Below are positions 13,823 through 23,324 of a stretch of 64,000 nucleotides of DNA, piece after piece. Numbering within the stretch: position 1 is the stretch's first letter; each line of letters begins with the position of its first letter. The DNA is from Labrys wisconsinensis (lineage in GTDB: Bacteria; Pseudomonadota; Alphaproteobacteria; Rhizobiales; Labraceae). The stretch lies in the NCBI RefSeq assembly GCF_030814995.1, contig NZ_JAUSVX010000009.1, positions 186,001 to 250,000 on the forward strand, written 5' to 3'. The notes beneath the pieces are model-generated. The model did no database searches, was not told the origin of the DNA, and saw nothing but the letters and a program-made list of their open reading frames with translations. Both the position numbers and the translations under genes were made by a program.

Positions 13823-14002
13823 ATGGTCGATCAAAAGCAGCCCACTTCAAAATCTTCCGAGACCATTGCCAAGCTCAAGGATCGCGCGGCGAAAGAATTG
13901 TCGGAAGAGGAGCTTCAGCAGGTTGCCGGCGGCGAGAAGGGCAAGGTGCAGATGCAGGACCTGTCGTTCGTCAAGAAGGTTGACGTCGCCAGCCCACGCT
14001 GA
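13823..14002 (+). CDS. Small secreted-peptide precursor 1 with double-glycine leader
   Basis: 59 residues, starting MVDQKQPTSK; GGAAAGG lies 8 bases before the ATG. Residues 25-37 read ELSEEELQQVAGG. This fits the classic double-glycine leader (L at -12, S at -11, E at -8, L at -7, V at -4, GG at -2/-1) recognised by C39 peptidase-ABC exporters. The predicted mature part is 22 residues (EKGKVQMQDL, then SFVKKVDVASPR), with four lysines and no cysteine. It is the first of three such genes followed by a methyltransferase, convergent to a C39-type export operon. A bacteriocin-like or signalling peptide is the likely nature; no known class is recognised in the core. It is short enough to be missed by usual gene callers. 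Confidence 0.82.
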   Translation: MVDQKQPTSKSSETIAKLKDRAAKELSEEELQQVAGGEKGKVQMQDLSFVKKVDVASPR

Positions 14003-14202
14003 CGGCGCCCGGTTTCGGGCAGCCCACCGGGACGATCGCAGGACGACGATGAGGTGCAGCGTGAATGCCGCTGTGGCCTGGGGCGCGCGAGCGGTGCCCA
14101 GCGGAACAGCTTGTCGAAGCGGCGCCCTGGTAGGCTTCGTCGTCGATCTTGGATGATCGTCTTTCCAACCGTGCGCCGGACTTCGTTGGACAGGAGCACA
14201 TG
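14003..14202. other. Spacer between peptide genes 1 and 2 with a hairpin
   Basis: 200 bases with no further double-glycine frame. Four bases after the first peptide's stop is a hairpin GCCCG-GTTT-CGGGC (14007-14020) without a T run. It could attenuate transcription or stabilise the first peptide's message. GGAG at 14193-14196 is the ribosome site of the next gene. Confidence 0.4.
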
Positions 14203-14436
14203 ATGAGCGGATCGTCACGGCCCGAGAAGGCCAAGGTGTCGGCGGAATCGAGGAAAAAGCGCCTCTCTCCAACCGGTTCGCTGGTGACGTCCGGCGAGCA
14301 GGCCGGCGTCGAGCTGTCCGAGGACGACCTGGCGACGGTCGCCGGCGGTACGCCAGTCACGCAGGACATCACCGTGAACAAGGCCAAGACCGCGGACAAG
14401 GCCTACGCGATCATGGACGCCTATATCAAAGGCTGA
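14203..14436 (+). CDS. Small secreted-peptide precursor 2 with double-glycine leader
   Basis: 77 residues from the ATG at 14203. The ATG at 14200 is also in frame, but GGAG (14193-14196) is better spaced for 14203. A long basic N-terminal part (SRKKRLSPTG) leads to ELSEDDLATVAGG at residues 37-49, the same leader end as the neighbouring peptides. The predicted mature tail has 28 residues (TPVTQDITVNKAKTADKAYA, then IMDAYIKG), with four lysines, no cysteine and no tryptophan. Leader and context indicate cleavage and export by the C39 ABC transporter at 19694-21886. Confidence 0.85.
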   Translation: MSGSSRPEKAKVSAESRKKRLSPTGSLVTSGEQAGVELSEDDLATVAGGTPVTQDITVNKAKTADKAYAIMDAYIKG

Positions 14437-14633
14437 AGCCTTTGCGATCTGGCGGACGCGACAGGACTCGCAAGGACGCGTCGAAACAGGGGGGTGGAGC
14501 AAGGTAGCGTTTCCGCCCGAAGGCGCTTTGCTCCAACGATCTGCGGCGATGCTGCTCCCGCCGCGGCGCCGCATCTTCGCAACGATGCCCAAACGCCCGA
14601 TCTGCCGTCTTGGAGCCTGCCTGGGAGGAAACG
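14437..14633. other. Spacer between peptide genes 2 and 3 with inverted repeats
   Basis: A short AAAGGCT-GA-AGCCTTT dyad (14428-14443) overlaps the second peptide's stop codon, and GGAGCAA/TTGCTCC arms (14496-14502 and 14528-14534) lie further on. Neither is followed by a T run. GGGAGGAA (14623-14630) precedes peptide 3. No additional small gene was found. Confidence 0.35.
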
Positions 14634-14816
14634 ATGGCCAAATCCGAGTCCAGACGTCGTGCCAAGGTGGTCTCGAAGCCCGACGACCTGACGAAGGCGA
14701 GGGTCGGTGCGAGCGTCGAGCTGACCGAGGAGCACTTGCAGTCCGTCAGCGGCGGCGTCGCGAACCTCAAGCTCGACCACAAGATCAACGCCCTGAGCAC
14801 CGATCGCCACAAATAG
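14634..14816 (+). CDS. Small secreted-peptide precursor 3 with double-glycine leader
   Basis: 60 residues, MAKSESRRRAKVVSKP at the start, with GGGAGGAA 3 bases before the ATG. Residues 29-41 are ELTEEHLQSVSGG, a close variant of the other two leaders. The predicted mature tail is only 19 residues (VANLKLDHKINALSTDRHK), with three lysines and two histidines and no cysteine. The methyltransferase gene starts 43 bases downstream, so this peptide and the enzyme are probably on one transcript. Confidence 0.84.
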   Translation: MAKSESRRRAKVVSKPDDLTKARVGASVELTEEHLQSVSGGVANLKLDHKINALSTDRHK

Positions 14817-14859
14817 CGATGGCGCATCCGTCGGAGGACCGATCGGGCCGGGAGGGCGC

Positions 14860-16233
14860 TTGACGGAACCGATCCGCTATGTGAGCGATGTGCCCTATGT
14901 GCCGGGCTTCACGTGCGAATTGTCGCCGGAATGGCTCGATTTCGTCGCGGTCCTCTGCGGGTTCGAGCCGCCGGGCCGCGCCTCCGATTTCTCCTGGTGC
15001 GAGCTTGGCTGCGGCCAGGGCCTGACGTCGATCGTCTTCGCCGCTACCCATCCCGAGGGCATGTTCCACGCCGTCGATGCGATGCCCGCGCACATTGCCT
15101 GGGGACGGCGGGTCGCGGCGGATGCCGGCATCGGCAATCTCGCCTTCCACGCCGTCGATTTCGCGGCGGCGGTCGAGCTCGACCTGCCGCAGTTCGCGTA
15201 TATCGTCGCCCACGGCGTCTATTCCTGGATCGACGAAGAGGCGAAGGCTGCATTCCGCCGCTTCATCGACCGTCACCTGGCCCCCGGCGGGCTGGTCTAT
15301 GTCAGCTACAACACGATGCCGGGCTGGGCCGCCGACGCGCCGTTCCAGCACCTCGTCCGGGCGATCGCCGCACGGGCGACAGGCGACAGCATGGACAGGT
15401 TCGATGCCGCGGCGGCGGCCGTCCAGGGCCTGACCAGGGCCGGCGCTCCCGCCCTCACCGCCAGCTCCGTCGCGGCCGGCTGGGATGCGGAGAAGGACCG
15501 GCGGCCGCGCGCCTATTTCGCGCATGAGTATCTGGCCCCGGCCTGGCGGCCGCTCTACGTCGACGATGTCCGCCGCGACATGGCGCAGATCGGGCTCGAG
15601 CCGGTGGGCTCGGCGACGCTGCGCGACAATTTCGACGGCTTCGTGCTGCGCCGCGCCGCCCGCGAAGCGCTCGAGGCCATTGCGGATGCCGACCTGCGGG
15701 ACCTCGTTCGCGACTACTTTCTGCTGCAGCGTTTCCGCCGCGACGTCTATGGGCGGGCGCCGGCCGGGCTTGACGACGACGAGCGGCGGAAACGCCTGTT
15801 CGCCATGCCGTTCGCCCTGGTCACACCCGCGGCCCTGGTCGAGTACGCCATGGCGACCGAAGCCGGGCGCGTGACCTACGACAATCCGGTGGCCCGCCGG
15901 ATCGTGTCCATGCTTGCGCACGAGCCGCGCACCCTTGCCGATTGCCTCACCGGGCCGGATCGAACGCAGGCGCCTGCGGCGCAGGATCTGCTGGCGAACG
16001 CCTTGGCGCTGTGCTGTGCCGGGACGATTGCGCCGGTGTCGCGCGGCCGGGCCGACGTGGCAGGGTTGAACGCCCTGCTCCTGGAGGATGCGGGCCCGGG
16101 CACAGCCTACCGCGTCCTGCCCTTCGGGACGGCGCAGAAGTTCGACACGCGGTTCCTGGTGGCGCTGCGCGACGGCAAGGAGGTCGCCCCCGAGGTCCGG
16201 CCCTGGGCCGACCACCTGCTGAGATGGGCCTGA
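14860..16233 (+). CDS. SAM-dependent methyltransferase with methyltransferase regulatory domain (protein-lysine methyltransferase type)
   Basis: 457 residues from a TTG start at 14860 preceded by GGGAGGG; an ATG at 14819 is out of frame. The class I SAM-binding core shows motif I CELGCGQG (47-54), an acidic motif II (AVDAMP, D73) and AVDF (D100). Then come HGVYSWI and APGGLVYVSYNTMPGW, which are hallmarks of the family carrying a 'methyltransferase regulatory domain'. That domain is seen later as DYFLLQRFRRDVYGR. Characterised relatives with this architecture are rickettsial enzymes that methylate lysines of outer-membrane protein OmpB. Next to three lysine-bearing peptides it is a good candidate for peptide N-methylation; this substrate is inferred. 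Confidence 0.85.
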   Translation: MTEPIRYVSDVPYVPGFTCELSPEWLDFVAVLCGFEPPGRASDFSWCELGCGQGLTSIVFAATHPEGMFHAVDAMPAHIAWGRRVAADAGIGNLAFHAVDFAAAVELDLPQFAYIVAHGVYSWIDEEAKAAFRRFIDRHLAPGGLVYVSYNTMPGWAADAPFQHLVRAIAARATGDSMDRFDAAAAAVQGLTRAGAPALTASSVAAGWDAEKDRRPRAYFAHEYLAPAWRPLYVDDVRRDMAQIGLEPVGSATLRDNFDGFVLRRAAREALEAIADADLRDLVRDYFLLQRFRRDVYGRAPAGLDDDERRKRLFAMPFALVTPAALVEYAMATEAGRVTYDNPVARRIVSMLAHEPRTLADCLTGPDRTQAPAAQDLLANALALCCAGTIAPVSRGRADVAGLNALLLEDAGPGTAYRVLPFGTAQKFDTRFLVALRDGKEVAPEVRPWADHLLRWA

Positions 16234-16251
16234 CGCCATCGGGGCGCCGGA

Positions 16252-16788
16252 TCACCCCCCCGACAACGCGGCCAGCAACCGGTGAAAGCGCTCCCCTGCC
16301 TGCGAAACCGTGTCGAGAACCGTGTCGTCCAGTTCGTCCTCGATGACGGCGTCGCCCCGCAGATCGCCCTCCTCGCCCTGGCCGAGGCGGTGATTGGCGG
16401 CGCGCAGGCGATCGGCCAGGAAGATCGCCAAGGCACGATAGAAGCGGGAGGAAAAGCCCGGATCCTCGTCGATCCTGTGCTGCAGATCGGTGCGCTTGAT
16501 CTCCAGCACCGACGCCCGCCCCAGCGCCGCCACGGTGGCGGAGGGCGGCGCCGTGTCGACGAACGACATCTCGCCGACGAATTCGCCGGCGCCGAGCTGG
16601 GCCAGCCTCGTGCCGTTGCCGAGCGTCACGCAGAGCGCGCCGTCCAGGCTGATGAACACGGCATCCACCGGCTGCCCGGCCCTGACGATCACCTCGCCGT
16701 CGCCGAGGCTGCGGCGCGTGCCGTGGCGCTGCAGCCACTGCACGTCGGCATCGTTCAATTGACCGAGGATGTACAGTGCCTTGCGCAT
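16252..16788 (-). CDS. Cyclic-nucleotide-binding-fold protein of the peptide export operon
   Basis: 178 residues. A single CRP/CAP-type beta-roll covers about 10-110 (VIVRAGQPVDAVFISLDGAL, then GEFVGEMSFVDTAPPSATVAA in two halves), with a helical tail to 178. The phosphate-binding cassette keeps the glutamate (GEM), but the usual arginine before the Ala/Thr-Val is replaced (PPSATV), so classical cAMP binding is doubtful. There is no DNA-binding domain or transmembrane segment. GGGAG precedes the ATG by 7 bases. It is the last gene of the HlyD/ABC/ABC operon (24-base gap) and converges on the methyltransferase gene. It may sense a ligand or dock on the transporter. Confidence 0.85.
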   Translation of the reverse strand: MRKALYILGQLNDADVQWLQRHGTRRSLGDGEVIVRAGQPVDAVFISLDGALCVTLGNGTRLAQLGAGEFVGEMSFVDTAPPSATVAALGRASVLEIKRTDLQHRIDEDPGFSSRFYRALAIFLADRLRAANHRLGQGEEGDLRGDAVIEDELDDTVLDTVSQAGERFHRLLAALSGG

Positions 16789-16812
16789 GGTCGATCTCCC
16801 GGAACGCCCTGG

Positions 16813-19704
16813 TCACGCCATCTGGCGTCGCGCCAGGGCGCGGAACATCCCGTCCTTCAGCATCAGACTCTCGAAATCACCGGCTTCGACGAGGCGCCCC
16901 CGGTCCAGGACCAGAATGAGATCCGCGCTCCGGATCGTCGTCAGACGGTGCGCGATGAGGATCCGGGTGACGTGAAGGCCGGACAGGGACGCCGTGACGA
17001 CGGCCTGCGTCGCATTGTCCAGCGCACTGGTCGCCTCGTCGAAAATGAGGAGCTGCGGCCGGGCGACGAGCGCGCGGGCGATCATCAGCCGCTGCATCTG
17101 TCCGCCCGAAAGGGTGACGGCTCCCTCCATCAGCACCGTGTGCATGCCCATCGGCATCGCCTCGATGTCGGCGGCGATCCCCGCCATGCGAGCTGCGTCC
17201 CACGCATCCTCGAGCGAGAAAGGCAGGCCCCCGGTGATCGTCTCGAAAATGCTGCCGCTCATGGCGCGGGTGTTCTGCAGGACCACACCGATCCGTCGCC
17301 GCAACGCCGATATGTCGAGGGTCGCCAGGGACTGCCCCTGATACAGGATGTCGCCGCTTTCCGGCGTCTCCAGCCCCAGGAGCAGGCGCGACAGGGTCGA
17401 CTTGCCACTGCCCGACGCCCCGACGATGGCGACGAACTGTCCGGGCTCGATGCGAAGGGAAATGTCGTCCAGCACGAGCGGCCCCGCGGGGTCGTAGCGG
17501 AAGCTGACATGGCTGACCTCGATCGCACCGGTCAGGGTGCCGGGGTCGACCCTGTCGCGATGCTTCTCCGGCTCCGTCTCCAGGATGACGTGGAGCCGCT
17601 CGAACAGCGGCATGGCGCCGACCATCGTGGTGAGCGCACCCGCGCCGCCGATCATGGCGGCGAGGAACTGGCCGAAGGCCGTGCTGATCGCCAGGAAGCC
17701 TCCCAGGGGCAACCCGCTGCCGGAGCCGTCGGCATGGCCGCCGATGGATCGGCTCGCCGCCAGGAAGAGCAGCATCAGCGCCAGCGTCGGATATGAGCCG
17801 TAGAAGGTGGCGCGCAGATTGGCGTAGCGGCGGCCGGCGAGAGTGGCCGCCTTTCTCCCGGCGAACAGGCCGGCCCAGAGCGCGAACAGGCGCGCCTCGC
17901 TCGCCGAGACCCGCAGCTTGCCCACGCCGTTGATCAGCTGGATGACGAGCGCATCCTCACGGCCGCCGCGTTCGACGGCGACGCGCTCATGCCGAAGCTG
18001 GGCATAGCCGAGCCCCGCTCCGATCGCGACGGCGACCGCCACGAGAGCCGCCGACAGCAGGGCGAGAGGCGGGCTGTAGGCCAGGATGACGGCGAAGCTG
18101 GTGATGGAAAAGCCGACCGCGAGCAGGGATGCGATCGTCGTGCCGGTGATCAGGCGGCGGATCCGCTGGACGCCCAGGATGCGATCGGTCAGGTCGCCCG
18201 TGCCGAAGCCGCGGAAGAATCCGACGGGAAGGTCGAGGAGGCGCTGCATGATGGCCGGCTGCAGCAAGCCTTCCGCCCGGGCTTCCAGACGCTGCAGGGC
18301 GATCGCCTTGACCAGCTCGAAGCTGGCCGCACCGAATGTCGCGAGCACCAGGCCGGCGATGATCGCGACCAGCTCGACCATGTCGGCGCGGGGAACGACC
18401 CGCTCGAACAGAAATCCGGTGGCGATCGGCACGACCGAGCCGAGGGCGCCCGCCAGAAGTCCCATGGTCAGGATGGAGACGACGTCGCGCAGGCTGCCGC
18501 GAAAGGCAAACCGGGCGAAGCCGCCGGCTTTGCGCGCCGCGGCGGGAAGCGGTGGATAGAGCATGACCGCCTCGACCGCGAGGTGAGCCGCCACCCCTCC
18601 GGTCACCGCCGTCCCCTCCCCGCTCGGGCCGTCGACCAGGCGATAGCCGCCGCGCCTGCCGGGCAGGAGCGCAACCGGCTGCTGATCCGGCATGCGGTAT
18701 CCGATCAGGGGGCCGTTGTCCGCCCGCCACCAGGCGCCGCGCAGCAGGACGCGGCGATAGGCAAAGCCGGTGACGCGTCCGAGCGAAGCCAGGGAGATCT
18801 CGGGAAGACCCGACAAGGCCGCGGGTTGCACGGGGCTTCCCAGGCTTTGCGCGACGGCCGCAAAGGCGGCCAGGAGCGGGCTGGCCGCCAGCGCTCCCGT
18901 GGCGGCCGCCGCCTTGCCGTCGACGAGAGCGCCGAGACCGCTGACGGCGTGGCTCATGGCCTTGTCGTCGCCGGCACGGCGCGCCAGCAGGCGCTGATGC
19001 GAGGCCTCGTCGAGCCGCGCGATCTGCCGGGAGATCCCGTCCAGGGCCCGGCGATGGAACTCTTCGAGAGACGCCGCCATCTCGCCGGCCGGCAGATCCG
19101 CGGTCGCGACGACGGCGAAACGGGCCGATGTCACGGCCCGGGCATGAAGGGCTGCCACGAGCGGCAGCACCGATCCGTGATCCTCGACGGCGATCTCGCC
19201 CGGATCGAAGCTCTGGACGATGCGTCCTTCCAGGGGTCTGACCCAGACCGGAGCGTCTCCGGCATAGAGGCGGGTCCCCGCTGCGCAGGCAGCCTCCGGG
19301 CCCGGTGCGACGACCCTGTCCGGCCAGGCCGGCGTGCTGCCGAAGACCGCCTCGCCGATCGACGACATCCACGCCTCGAGCAGGGACGTCAGGTCGCGTG
19401 GCGGCACCCCGGGCATCTCTTCGATCGCGGCGTCCAGGCTGCCGACCGCGACAAGGGCGATGTCGGCGGCGGTCGGCAGGGCGCAGACGAGGCCGCCGGC
19501 CTCGACGCGCAGGACGTGCCGCCTCGCCCCGGTCGCCTCGCCGCCGGTCAGCGGGACCGCGAACAGATCGACATATCCCAATCGTACGATGAAGGGGCCG
19601 GACAGCCGGTCGAGGCGCAGCGGGGACGACGCGTCGATCCGATGAACCGCTCCGGCGCAGCGCGGCGGCTGATCGCGGGCGGCTTGATCCGCGCTATTGG
19701 GCAT
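16813..19704 (-). CDS. NHLM-type bacteriocin export ABC transporter, permease/ATPase subunit 2
   Basis: 963 residues. The first ~380 residues are a soluble extension (beta-rich start RLDRLSGPFIVRLGYVDLF, then a helical part) without peptidase residues. A six-helix ABC exporter membrane domain and a C-terminal ATPase domain follow: Walker A GASGSGKST 762-770, signature LSGGQ 865-869, Walker B LLIFDEA with Glu890, H-loop His919. Size and order match the second ABC subunit of the NHLM (nitrile hydratase leader microcin) export system. The start ATG overlaps the end of the peptidase-ABC gene by 11 bases, which implies translational coupling and probably a heterodimeric exporter. It belongs to the operon that ends with the cyclic-nucleotide-fold gene. 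Confidence 0.9.
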   Translation of the reverse strand: MPNSADQAARDQPPRCAGAVHRIDASSPLRLDRLSGPFIVRLGYVDLFAVPLTGGEATGARRHVLRVEAGGLVCALPTAADIALVAVGSLDAAIEEMPGVPPRDLTSLLEAWMSSIGEAVFGSTPAWPDRVVAPGPEAACAAGTRLYAGDAPVWVRPLEGRIVQSFDPGEIAVEDHGSVLPLVAALHARAVTSARFAVVATADLPAGEMAASLEEFHRRALDGISRQIARLDEASHQRLLARRAGDDKAMSHAVSGLGALVDGKAAAATGALAASPLLAAFAAVAQSLGSPVQPAALSGLPEISLASLGRVTGFAYRRVLLRGAWWRADNGPLIGYRMPDQQPVALLPGRRGGYRLVDGPSGEGTAVTGGVAAHLAVEAVMLYPPLPAAARKAGGFARFAFRGSLRDVVSILTMGLLAGALGSVVPIATGFLFERVVPRADMVELVAIIAGLVLATFGAASFELVKAIALQRLEARAEGLLQPAIMQRLLDLPVGFFRGFGTGDLTDRILGVQRIRRLITGTTIASLLAVGFSITSFAVILAYSPPLALLSAALVAVAVAIGAGLGYAQLRHERVAVERGGREDALVIQLINGVGKLRVSASEARLFALWAGLFAGRKAATLAGRRYANLRATFYGSYPTLALMLLFLAASRSIGGHADGSGSGLPLGGFLAISTAFGQFLAAMIGGAGALTTMVGAMPLFERLHVILETEPEKHRDRVDPGTLTGAIEVSHVSFRYDPAGPLVLDDISLRIEPGQFVAIVGASGSGKSTLSRLLLGLETPESGDILYQGQSLATLDISALRRRIGVVLQNTRAMSGSIFETITGGLPFSLEDAWDAARMAGIAADIEAMPMGMHTVLMEGAVTLSGGQMQRLMIARALVARPQLLIFDEATSALDNATQAVVTASLSGLHVTRILIAHRLTTIRSADLILVLDRGRLVEAGDFESLMLKDGMFRALARRQMA

Positions 19705-21886
19705 CGATGAGGTGCCTGTAGTCCGGGCAGCTCGCGAGCAGCTCCGGATGCCGCCCGCGCCCGATCACCCGTCCGGCCCGCAGCATCACGATCTCATCGC
19801 AATCGCGGATCGTGCTCAGCCGATGGGCGATGATGATGCAGGTGCAGCCCCGTCGCCGGATATTGTCGTCGATCGCCTGCTCGACGATCGGATCCAGCGC
19901 CGCCATCGCCTCGTCGAGGACGAGGATGGCCGGATCCTCCACCAGCGCACGCGCGATCTCGAGACGCTGGCGCTGGCCGCCGCTGAAATTGATGCCGGCC
20001 TCCGCGACATGCGCGTGCTGGAGCCCCGGCCTGACCGTGATCTCCTCGAACACGGCCGCATCCTTGAGGGCCCGCAGCACGGCCGCATCCTCGAGGCTGC
20101 GGTCCCAAAGGGTGACATTGTCCCTGACGCTGCCCTGGAACAGGAAGATGTCCTGATCCACATAGGCGAGCGACCTCGCGAGGATCGGCCGGGGAATGTC
20201 CTGCGCCGCCACGCCGTCGATCAGGATGCTCCCCGACCACGGCACGTGGAGGCCGCTGATCAGCCGCCCGAGCGTCGACTTGCCGCTGCCCGAGGCCCCG
20301 ACGATCCCGATGCGCATGCCCGGCTGCACCGAGAGGCTGAAATCGGCGATGAGCGGCGGCTCCTGCGGATTGTAGCCGAACGTGACGGCGTGCAGGTCCA
20401 GTTGCCCACGCAGGCGCGTGGTCCGAGGGGGCATGGGCGCGGCGGCCTGCCGGTCGTCGGATGGGGCGAGCCGCGGGTCGGGCGGGCTGGCCAGGACATC
20501 GCGGATATTGGCAAGCCCGCCCCTCATCTCCTGCAGGGTCGCGCCGATGCCGAGCATCTGTCCGACCGGGTCCGAGAACGCCGCGGCGAGAGCCAGGAAG
20601 GCGACGAGGTCGCCGACCGACATTCGCCCGGCCATCACCTCGAGGCTGCCGACCCCGAGCAAGGCGCAGTGCCCGAGGCCGGCAAGCAGAGGAGGCACCG
20701 CATCCAGCATCGCCGCTGAGCGGCCGAGATCCCGGCTGGCGGCCATGGTCCGGGCGTGATGCCCCGCCCAGCGCCCGAAGGCATCCTGCTCCAGTCCGCT
20801 CGCCTTCACCGTCTCGATCGCACGGACGATGCCGACCGTGGCGCTCATCAGCTGGCCTCGGTCCTTCATGAGGCGCTGGGCCGTCGCCTCCCGCCGCCGC
20901 CAGGCGAGCCACAAGGCGGCGATGTCGATCAACGCGATCGGCACCACGATCGCCGTCAGGCCGGGGTTGAAGGCGGCCATCGCCGCCAGGAACACGAGGG
21001 ACGTGACCAGGCTGAGCGCCAGCGTCGCGAGCCCGCCCGACAGCAGCCGGGCCATGTCGTCATTGGCCTGGATGCGATTGGCGATATCGCCGGCATGCCG
21101 CTGCGTGAAGAAGACCATGGGCAGGCGCAGGAGGTGCCAGACGAAGCGGCTGCCGAGCGACAGGGCGAGCTTCGTCTCCAGGCGCAGGAGATAATGGGTC
21201 TGCACGAAGATCAGGGCCGCGCGGACCGCCGCGGTCGCCGCCATGCCCAGGAACAGCGGAGCGAGCCATCCGTCCAGCCGGCCGATCAGGACGTCGTCGA
21301 TGAAGATCTTGGCGAACAGCGGCGTGAGGATGCCGGGAATCGCCAGCAGCACGCTGAGAAGCAGCACCAGCGCCACGCCGTCGCCCGACCCGCGCAACCT
21401 CTGCCACAGCAACCCGAGCAGGCTGGGTGGCGAGCCCTCGGCCCGAAAGCCGGCGGCCGGCTCCATGGCCAGGACCACGCCGGTGAAGGATTCGGAGAAC
21501 TCCGCCGCGTCGACGCGGCAGCGGCCGATCGCGGGATCGTTGAGATAGGCCCATTTCCCGACGAATCCTTCGAAAACGACAAAATGATTGAAGTTCCAAT
21601 GGATGATCGACGGGATGGGAAGCGACGTCAGGTCTTCCGGCTCCTTGCGGAACCCCTTGGCCGCCAGGCCGTAGTGCCGGGCAGCCTTGAGGATGTTGCT
21701 GGCCTTGGTGCCGTCACGCGAGACCCCGCATCGAAAGCGCAGCTCTTCCAGCGGAACCCATCGGCGATGGAAGGCCAGGATCATGGCGAGCGCCGCCGCC
21801 CCGCATTCGACCGCTTCCATCTGGAAGACGGTCGGGGTGCTCCTGCGTTTGCCGGCTTGCCGGCTTCGTTTCGCCGAACGGAGCAT
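19694..21886 (-). CDS. NHLM-type C39 peptidase-containing ABC exporter (leader-cleaving subunit)
   Basis: 730 residues from the ATG at 21886 (a TTG one codon earlier is also in frame). The N-terminal C39 peptidase domain is complete: oxyanion Gln22 and Cys28 in FQMEAVECGAAAL, His101 in WNFNHFVVFEG and Asp117 in YLNDPAIG. Six membrane helices follow from about 160 to 430. The ATPase domain has Walker A GASGSGKST (530-538), signature FSGGQ (634-638) and Walker B VLVLDEA. Such proteins cut precursor peptides after the double glycine and pump the mature part across the inner membrane. The three small genes at 13823-14816 carry fitting leaders. Confidence 0.94.
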   Translation of the reverse strand: MLRSAKRSRQAGKRRSTPTVFQMEAVECGAAALAMILAFHRRWVPLEELRFRCGVSRDGTKASNILKAARHYGLAAKGFRKEPEDLTSLPIPSIIHWNFNHFVVFEGFVGKWAYLNDPAIGRCRVDAAEFSESFTGVVLAMEPAAGFRAEGSPPSLLGLLWQRLRGSGDGVALVLLLSVLLAIPGILTPLFAKIFIDDVLIGRLDGWLAPLFLGMAATAAVRAALIFVQTHYLLRLETKLALSLGSRFVWHLLRLPMVFFTQRHAGDIANRIQANDDMARLLSGGLATLALSLVTSLVFLAAMAAFNPGLTAIVVPIALIDIAALWLAWRRREATAQRLMKDRGQLMSATVGIVRAIETVKASGLEQDAFGRWAGHHARTMAASRDLGRSAAMLDAVPPLLAGLGHCALLGVGSLEVMAGRMSVGDLVAFLALAAAFSDPVGQMLGIGATLQEMRGGLANIRDVLASPPDPRLAPSDDRQAAAPMPPRTTRLRGQLDLHAVTFGYNPQEPPLIADFSLSVQPGMRIGIVGASGSGKSTLGRLISGLHVPWSGSILIDGVAAQDIPRPILARSLAYVDQDIFLFQGSVRDNVTLWDRSLEDAAVLRALKDAAVFEEITVRPGLQHAHVAEAGINFSGGQRQRLEIARALVEDPAILVLDEAMAALDPIVEQAIDDNIRRRGCTCIIIAHRLSTIRDCDEIVMLRAGRVIGRGRHPELLASCPDYRHLIDAQ

Positions 21887-21929
21887 CAAGACTCTTGCGA
21901 ACGGCTGGTCGCGGGGGATGGGAGGGCGG

Positions 21930-23183
21930 TCACGGGCGATTCCGGAACATCGGCATCAGCGCCTCGATCGGCGCCTGGCGGCTGATCGTCACCGCGGCGC
22001 GGACGGTGGTGCCGCTCGACAGCCGGGTGGGCGGGCCCGGGCCGCCGGACCAGCGATAGCCGGACGGGGTGTCGGCGACGGCGAGGAGCTCGACCCGGAC
22101 CGCATAAGGCGGTCCCTGGGCCATGAAATTGGCGACGAGCTGGGCATTCTGCAGAACCGAGGCCATGCCTTCGGCCGTCATCGGGAAGTTCGAGACGGCC
22201 GTGACCGTGCCGAGCAGCGTGCCGTACTCCTCCTTCTTGACCGTGGAGGGCTCGATATGAACCTCCATGCCCGGCGCCACGGTCTTGCCGAACGCCGGTG
22301 GGACATAGAGCAGCAGCTCCAGTCCCGTGCCGGCGATCTCCAGGCTCAGGATCGGCTTGCCCGAGGCGACGATGGTCCCGGGCGTTGCCTTCAGCTCGGT
22401 GACGACGCCGTCGAGCGGACTGACGACCCGCGTCGCCCGCTGGAGCTGGGCGCTCAGGTCATCGACGCGGCGGCGCGCCTCGTTCACGGCCTGCTGGGCA
22501 TTCAGGGTCGCAAGGTCGCGCTGGCCGGAAAGATCGGACTCCTCCGCGTTCAGGCGCAGGACGTCCGTCCTGGCCTGCCCTGCCGCCTGGGCGGCCTCTT
22601 CCATGGCTCGGCGCGTGTCCTCCTGAAAGCGTTCGGTGAGGTAGCCGCGCGCCACCGCCTGAGCCTGACGCTCGAGCAGATCCTTGTAGAAGGCCTGGCG
22701 CTGCTCGGCCGCTGCGGCCAGGCTGCCGAGATTCTCGCTCTGCGCCGCGACATTCTTGTGCTTGAGCGCGACCTGCTGGTCGTAGTTGGCCGAGAGCTTG
22801 GCCAGATCCGCCTGCTTCTCCCGCAGCACCTCTTCGGCATGGTCGATATCCTGTCGCAGCGCCCCGTCGTCGAAGCTGGCCAGCGGATCGCCCTTGCGGA
22901 CGATGGCGCCGATCGCGGCCACGGATGCCAGGGTCCCGGTCGCCGGCGCGATCGCATCGAAGACGTAGCCGCCGCGCGATACCAGGATCCCCGCGCCGTC
23001 GACGGTCGTCGGGACCCTGCCGAAGACGCTCCAGGCGAAGCCGGAGGCGACGAGGGCGGCCAGCGCCAGGGCGGCGATCCACCCGAGCGGTGACGTCAGC
23101 GACACCAGCTCGTCGAGCTGCTCGGGAGACGACAGCCGCTCGATGGCGGCCTTGCGGTAGATCCTCTCGGGGACCGTGGCCAT
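21930..23183 (-). CDS. HlyD-like membrane-fusion protein of the NHLM-type export system
   Basis: 417 residues from the ATG at 23183, which has GGAAG 5 bases upstream; a longer frame adds 25 unlikely residues. There is a short cytoplasmic start, one membrane helix (about 33-54) and a first lipoyl half (FDAIAPATGTLASVAAIGA). A long coiled-coil hairpin covers about 105-245 (EEVLREKQADLAKLSANYDQ onward), followed by the second lipoyl half (RVVSPLDGVVTELKATPG) and a beta-barrel region. This is the architecture of adaptor subunits that link inner-membrane exporters to an outer-membrane duct. It is the first gene of the four-gene operon. No dedicated outer-membrane channel gene is adjacent. Confidence 0.9.
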   Translation of the reverse strand: MATVPERIYRKAAIERLSSPEQLDELVSLTSPLGWIAALALAALVASGFAWSVFGRVPTTVDGAGILVSRGGYVFDAIAPATGTLASVAAIGAIVRKGDPLASFDDGALRQDIDHAEEVLREKQADLAKLSANYDQQVALKHKNVAAQSENLGSLAAAAEQRQAFYKDLLERQAQAVARGYLTERFQEDTRRAMEEAAQAAGQARTDVLRLNAEESDLSGQRDLATLNAQQAVNEARRRVDDLSAQLQRATRVVSPLDGVVTELKATPGTIVASGKPILSLEIAGTGLELLLYVPPAFGKTVAPGMEVHIEPSTVKKEEYGTLLGTVTAVSNFPMTAEGMASVLQNAQLVANFMAQGPPYAVRVELLAVADTPSGYRWSGGPGPPTRLSSGTTVRAAVTISRQAPIEALMPMFRNRP

Positions 23184-23324
23184 GTCGCTTCCGCGAAGGT
23201 GCCTGTCAGGATCCCGGCAAAGGCGCCGCAGACCGCAGGCACAGCTTCCCGTGGGCATGATACAGGCAGCATCGGAGGCGTTCGAGCGATTTCTTGCCGC
23301 TGCGGCACGGCCCCGGCCGGGTCG
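23184..23324. promoter_or_regulatory. Presumed promoter region of the export operon
   Basis: 141 bases between the parC stop and the adaptor start. Transcription of the HlyD/ABC/ABC/CNB operon must begin here or upstream in parC. No convincing paired -35/-10 boxes were recognised; a TATCAT-like element lies near 23260 on the minus strand. Confidence 0.3.

Follow-up and report, generated by a model that had tools for sequence, protein, structure and literature searches.

A putative NHLM-type export cluster of Labrys wisconsinensis whose predicted double-glycine micro-peptides include a segment resembling the type VI secretion tube protein Hcp

The locus analysed here lies in a stretch of 64,000 nucleotides of Labrys wisconsinensis contig NZ_JAUSVX010000009.1 (GCF_030814995.1, positions 186,001 to 250,000, forward strand), hereafter the window, and comprises three double-glycine (GG) micro-peptide genes (P1, P2 and P3), a methyltransferase gene and an export operon. 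The closest described relatives are the NHLP/Nif11 (NHLM) systems, with which it shares the trio of adaptor, C39-peptidase ABC transporter and second ABC transporter, the GG cleavage motif and hypervariable cargo, as set out by Haft, Basu and Mitchell 2010 (PMC2887384). It differs in the tailoring enzyme beside the peptides, a PKMT-type methyltransferase; cyclodehydratases and lanthionine synthetases, absent according to the preliminary description, were not among the families matched by the cluster genes, and no search was aimed at them or at LanM genes. Class II microcins and bacteriocins (TIGR01847, PF10439) likewise have a short GG leader motif and expected C39 processing, whereas in the window at least one cargo contains part of Hcp, which forms the tube of the type VI secretion system (T6SS), and no immunity gene was recognised beside the peptides, none having been sought systematically. 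Compared with Hcp itself (PF05638, PDB 1y12), P1 offers one segment only, aligned over about 20 contiguous residues and placed behind a GG leader; Hcp proteins whose sequences were inspected carried no such leader, and a complete GG-leader Hcp was rejected as the source. The methyltransferase is homologous to rickettsial PKMT1 and PKMT2 (5dnk, 5doo). In the part of PMC11784438 that treats this family, which includes KmtA of Acinetobacter Tol 5, the published members methylate lysines on large surface proteins (OmpB, AtaA), whereas the window gene follows closely upon a GG micro-peptide. Exporters and peptides of these kinds are already known; the novelty lies in the Hcp origin of a cargo and in the PKMT-type enzyme that accompanies the peptides. 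Our reading, which we consider probable, is that the cluster is of the NHLM export type and that its substrates are GG micro-peptides with short leaders, P1 at least bearing a segment of the Hcp domain.

The best Pfam family for P1 was T6SS_HCP (PF05638; E 3.8e-4, 21.2 bits), and the 22-residue cargo alone, without the GG, still matched that family (E 0.0047) and no other at E up to 10. In the PDB the best match was the Hcp PA0085 (1y12, E 0.039). Against the Hcp model used for shuffle tests, which has 145 positions and was built from 122 Hcp domains, P1 scored 16.4 bits at positions 39-58, a score reached by 0 of 2000 shuffles; it spans about 20 of the 145 positions and is not a complete domain. 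On these comparisons we take the P1 cargo to be a fragment of Hcp, an origin that a preliminary description of this DNA had overlooked. The P2 cargo gave a marginal result in the same test (p ~0.038) and is doubtfully like segment A, and the P3 cargo was not detectably Hcp-like (p ~0.53). The Pfam Hcp search gave no Hcp above cut-off in the own genome; the second match there was judged, from the frames at its locus, to be ribosomal protein L2. Congeners G001, G002 and G003 have two full-length Hcp genes each, and G004, like the own genome, has none above cut-off.

The same kind of peptide recurred elsewhere. When a 30-Hcp model was run on 48,638 six-frame open reading frames (ORFs) from 123 stretches (NHLM loci and two own-genome stretches), the top two matches were GG peptides, one at locus L219 (E 0.024) and P1 itself (E 0.061), with the next at E 4.2. 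In a shuffle test of 112 GG cargoes at NHLM loci, four reached the floor of p 0.001 where about 0.1 were expected, and the next stood at p 0.005 and 0.036; P1 and possibly other ORFs were lost from this set to an overlap filter, P1 being scored separately, and the 40 Bradyrhizobium cargoes include some selected for Hcp likeness and are not an unbiased sample. With segments lettered N, A, B, C and D, the four were segment B at L219 and L154 and segments C and N from L216, a Phenylobacterium bin. A Pfam Hcp search of 242 Bradyrhizobium genomes returned full-length Hcp plus many partial matches. We fetched 21 of the latter, picked from a longer list: 18, the L219 peptide among them, proved to be short ORFs in which a GG leader precedes a single Hcp segment, one was a GA variant and two were neither. 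Three others were opened, of which L381 has GG, L382 has GA and L383 was read as a full-length Hcp truncated by a contig end. The 18 GG peptides were spread over 11 genomes, and two peptides, L262 (25.4 bits) and L260 (25.0), exceeded the PF05638 gathering score of 23.5. Full-length Hcp above cut-off was listed in three of the 11 carriers (G918, G968, G788) and, as in the own genome, unlisted in the other eight. Adjoining GG peptides at L254, L256 and L258, missed by the Hcp search, bear the C-terminal segment D by the shuffle test. Among 23 more GG ORFs near leader-profile matches, L351, L363, L355 and L364 (already known) gave p 0.0005 and L361 gave 0.0145, the set (L350-L369) having been chosen with a leader profile in which Hcp cargoes were already included. 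A cargo at L319, Hcp-like by eye beside L274-L279, failed the shuffle test (p 0.20). A plasmid search with P1 gave no match, and outside Bradyrhizobium GG-Hcp peptides look rare.

Mapped onto the Hcp model, the cargoes of genome G918 fell at 1-22 (segment N, behind GA), 33-61 and 33-58 (A), 54-75 and 53-76 (B), 75-99 (C), and 106-128, 114-129 and 114-144 (D), so that segments in separate genes make up most of the Hcp domain with gaps at 23-32 and 100-105. In this genome a segment-B peptide comes after a complete NHLM operon, and there is also a full-length Hcp without a GG leader; G968 carries segments A, B, C and D. Constraint was moderate on cargo and leader, with a pooled pN/pS of 0.52 in each over six orthologue pairs, a value that rests on few changes and on two pooled pairs sharing one sequence. 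A small ORF of another genome of the same order (G263, L388:661-885) appears by eye to carry a Sec-type signal sequence, after which come Hcp segment A and then a stop; its Hcp piece (positions 34-58, 16.7 bits, 0 of 2000 shuffles as high) may be a single case of such a piece leaving the cell by another route. Proteins of 775-2353 residues with 4 to 12 tandem Hcp-like domains were seen in Bradyrhizobium G948, G1003, G989 and G900 (L280, L281, L282 and L283, respectively), and in L280, L282 and L283 a motif GSQS[ST]GAGAGKVTF looks like the beginning of segment-A GG cargoes. Two GG peptides have Tox-PAAR-like (PF13665) cargoes below cut-off, L053 12918-13217 (E 0.0015) and L273 2776-3006 (E 0.0032), the latter adjoining a segment-B Hcp peptide; PAAR-like cargoes are possibly a second T6SS part among GG peptides.

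The adaptor, ABC1 and ABC2 all scored above the curated NCBIfam NHLM cut-offs (Table 1), which identifies the window exporter by homology as the NHLM-type set that the preliminary description had proposed. The cyclic-nucleotide-fold protein reached 131.6 bits against TIGR03896, under the cut-off of 161.05 and over profile part 139-315 of 317 only. The own genome has one ABC2 above the TIGR03797 cut-off; a second, divergent NHLM-ABC2-like transporter (C26:34389-36395, 373 bits) lies below it, and a relaxed GG scan around it returned two ORFs, neither convincing. Known NHLM substrates with long leaders, encoded at other places in the genome, had been named earlier as a rival cargo for the exporter, and a whole-genome profile search (TIGR03798, TIGR03793) found none above cut-off. 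The strongest match to the NHLP model (E 5.5e-8, below cut-off) was rejected as a true nitrile hydratase alpha chain with a CTLCSC site.

A leader profile made from 18 Bradyrhizobium leaders, with no window sequence in it, was scanned against the 1110 window ORFs of at least 20 residues and ranked P1 (E 3e-5), P2 (8.5e-4) and P3 (1.5e-3) at the top, the next ORF standing at E 8.9. For the bacteriocin-type leader TIGR01847 (cut-off 15.7), P1 scored 18.9 and P3 12.6, below it, with P2 unlisted; for the long-leader model TIGR03798 (cut-off 32.3), P1 scored 16.0 and P2 and P3 were unlisted. Near-identical GG cargoes were dropped to leave 102, and in a Pfam scan of 84 peptides (this set minus the L254-L273 rows, plus P1) eight matched Bacteriocin_IIc. 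Among 121 stretches surrounding NHLM exporters, a rough motif count gave a possible short-leader GG ORF in 50 and none but the long-leader form in 10; some loci entered it twice, and in a few cases long leaders containing inner methionines were miscounted as short. Short leaders appear to be a common, ordinary variant of NHLM-associated peptides; because they are frequent beside NHLM exporters, they define no distinct family on their own. The earlier proposal, of exported and possibly methylated peptides forming a family of their own, is thereby weakened as to distinctness, and is supported in so far as the gene set recurs in the Phenylobacterium bin.

The methyltransferase (METHYLTRANSFERASE) matched rickettsial PKMT2 (5doo, E 5.3e-25, residues 8-294) and PKMT1 (5dnk, E 1.2e-16, residues 9-292), a kinship passed over in the preliminary description, and scored 71.3 bits on PF10119 (cut-off 25.5). 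Lysines are therefore its probable target, and the cargoes of P1, P2 and P3 hold 4, 4 and 3 of them, with 2, 4 and 2 Ser/Thr and no cysteine. The full set recurred in one other genome, L216, where the exporter and GG peptides stand with a 49% identical methyltransferase, which lies downstream of a P3-like peptide in the same order as in the window. An adjacent second P3-like peptide there comes with a methyltransferase-like N-terminal fragment, and a P2-like gene is likewise found in the bin, as are GG peptides bearing Hcp segments C and N, the segment-C cargo running into unread bases. In the shuffle test neither the P2-like nor the P3-like cargoes of L216 resembled Hcp (p 0.36 to 1.0). The terminal DAYIKG of P2 resembles DAYIRS in L216, the two P2-type cargoes matching at p 0.026, and the P3 cargo matched one of the L216 P3-like cargoes at p 0.0024 and the other at 0.39. 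At the other sampled NHLM loci no homologue of the methyltransferase was found at E up to 1e-3 (next best after L216, E 0.43), and the pairing with NHLM is rare. A wider search gave 34 matches beyond the own gene, with identities of 30-45%, of which 29 were given as loci and scanned; a plasmid search gave 26 records, all below 60% identity.

Table 1. Genes of the Labrys wisconsinensis cluster (positions in the window)
Feature	Position	Strand	Remarks
P1	13823-14002	+	59 aa; 37-aa GG leader and 22-aa cargo, matching Hcp segment A (model positions 39-58)
P2	14203-14436	+	77 aa from ATG at 14203; 49-aa GG leader and 28-aa cargo
P3	14634-14816	+	60 aa; 41-aa GG leader and 19-aa cargo
Methyltransferase	14860-16233	+	TTG start, 43 bases past P3; PKMT-type (outer-membrane-protein lysine methyltransferase family)
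Cyclic-nucleotide-fold protein	16252-16788	-	Export operon member; cNMP_binding PF00027 61.4 bits
ABC2, NHLM second ABC transporter	16813-19704	-	TIGR03797 795.9 bits, cut-off 709.4
ABC1, C39-peptidase ABC transporter	19694-21889	-	TIGR03796 962.9 bits, cut-off 853.3; Peptidase_C39 PF03412 115.5 bits
HlyD-like periplasmic adaptor	21930-23183	-	TIGR03794 306.7 bits, cut-off 156.2

The layout in Table 1 agrees with the preliminary description as to the coordinates and frames of the three peptide genes, the distance from the last of these to the methyltransferase and the convergent operon, all four of whose genes are on the minus strand. An alternative ATG for P2 lies at 14200. The adaptor has a further in-frame ATG upstream at 23258, and aligned relatives favour the start at 23183.

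In the mechanism that we propose, the leader would dock on ABC1 and the C39 domain would cleave after GG. ABC1, ABC2 and the adaptor, together with an outer-membrane channel presumably encoded elsewhere, would then release peptides of 19-28 residues, the PKMT-family enzyme having probably methylated the three or four lysines of each cargo ahead of export. Leader-bearing exported peptides are usually interpreted as bacteriocins or signals. If cargoes made of Hcp pieces form a recurring class, two export worlds, that of the peptidase-ABC pumps and that of the T6SS, would be connected. Such a class suggests a decoy secreted against tubes or, alternatively, a domain whose segments came to be encoded and exported one by one; the methyltransferase pairing would give its enzyme family a small, easily assayed substrate. 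Among open-licence papers we found none joining GG leaders or leader peptides with Hcp or T6SS, and none on topic for NHLM with GG or for Bradyrhizobium GG peptides. The role we prefer, though we still rate it as unlikely, is that the exported strand mimics act as decoys, binding Hcp-like domains and disturbing their assembly outside the producer. A broader proposal, that the Hcp domain of a contractile injection tube was broken up into segments, each joined to a GG leader of its own, and that soil bacteria secrete these Hcp strand pieces through NHLM-type C39 pumps and thereby either block foreign tubes or rebuild an Hcp-like object, those of the window being probably lysine-methylated, is tentative and in our judgement falls somewhat short of an even chance.

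Several results weigh against an Hcp-based reading of the cluster. The majority of GG cargoes were not Hcp-like, and in the window the Hcp theme appears to cover one, perhaps two, of the three peptides. A search of 59 other relatives gave no match to P1, and in 289 genomes of the class and 327 of the order P1 was the only GG-Hcp peptide recognised; three of the weak short-frame Hcp matches in these genomes were opened, none with a GG leader, and most were left unopened. Single-pair pN/pS varied widely (1.12 for a segment-B cargo, no synonymous change for segment C), which makes it weak evidence of constraint. A GG peptide lay within 1.5 kb in none of the 29 loci with related methyltransferases, which indicates that enzymes of this family mostly act on something else. 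Finally, the score of P1 falls short of the PF05638 gathering score, as it might if the match were due to chance or to an artefact of the glycine-rich junction. Such an explanation is highly improbable, since the GG-less cargo still matches Hcp only and many Bradyrhizobium peptides show the same pattern, two of them above the cut-off; a chance origin was rejected on the shuffle result.

What the Hcp segments are for can be read in other ways. GG cargoes are generally hypervariable, according to the portion of PMC2887384 that deals with them, and leader genes may repeatedly have captured hcp fragments by recombination, in which case origin would be uninformative on function and the products would be ordinary secreted peptides or drifting genes. 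The mostly non-Hcp cargoes, the moderate pooled pN/pS and the value of 1.12 in the segment-B pair are consistent with such capture, which we nevertheless think rather unlikely: the segments tend to have the same boundaries (A-type cargoes mostly end just past ASPxL, and B-type ones begin about there), N, A, B, C and D all occur, orthologues are kept in several species, and the two PAAR-like cargoes give a hint of a T6SS connection. Another reading is a split Hcp, in which peptides with one segment each would, once exported, complement one another's strands and so rebuild an Hcp-like fold or ring. Here the separate N, A, B, C and D genes of G918, with consistent boundaries, the clustering of N, D, D and A within ~1.2 kb of that genome with D and A paired again at a second place, the N and C of L216 and the four segments of G968 speak for reassembly. 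Most carriers, however, were found with one or two segment kinds only (8/11 in Bradyrhizobium, in a search that was not exhaustive), which argues against a kit, one segment is present in several copies in G918, where two gaps stay uncovered, and only segment A is certain in the window, so that we regard a split Hcp as quite unlikely. C39 exporters usually serve bacteriocin-like or signalling peptides, and the Hcp-like strands could be bioactive as class II microcin-type peptides unconnected with T6SS; the resemblance to bacteriocin leaders (P1 in TIGR01847, Bacteriocin_IIc in the Pfam scan) points the same way. Set against this are the failure to recognise an immunity gene in our unsystematic inspection and the appearance of the cargoes, by eye short, charged and without a hydrophobic helix, and we hold a bacteriocin-like role to be unlikely, as we do the decoy role.

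Further short GG peptides occur elsewhere in the own genome (L384, L385) and were kept separate from the window set. One of them, L384 (G000 C12, 727-978), shares the cargo end SISQGEVN..QTD.NLP with L219:17932-18174 of B. erythrophlei. A conserved GG cargo starting LNPQPLPP was seen in NHLM loci L149 (LNPQPLPPK), L155, L160, L166 and L176, and the same letters also occur deeper inside one L150 cargo.

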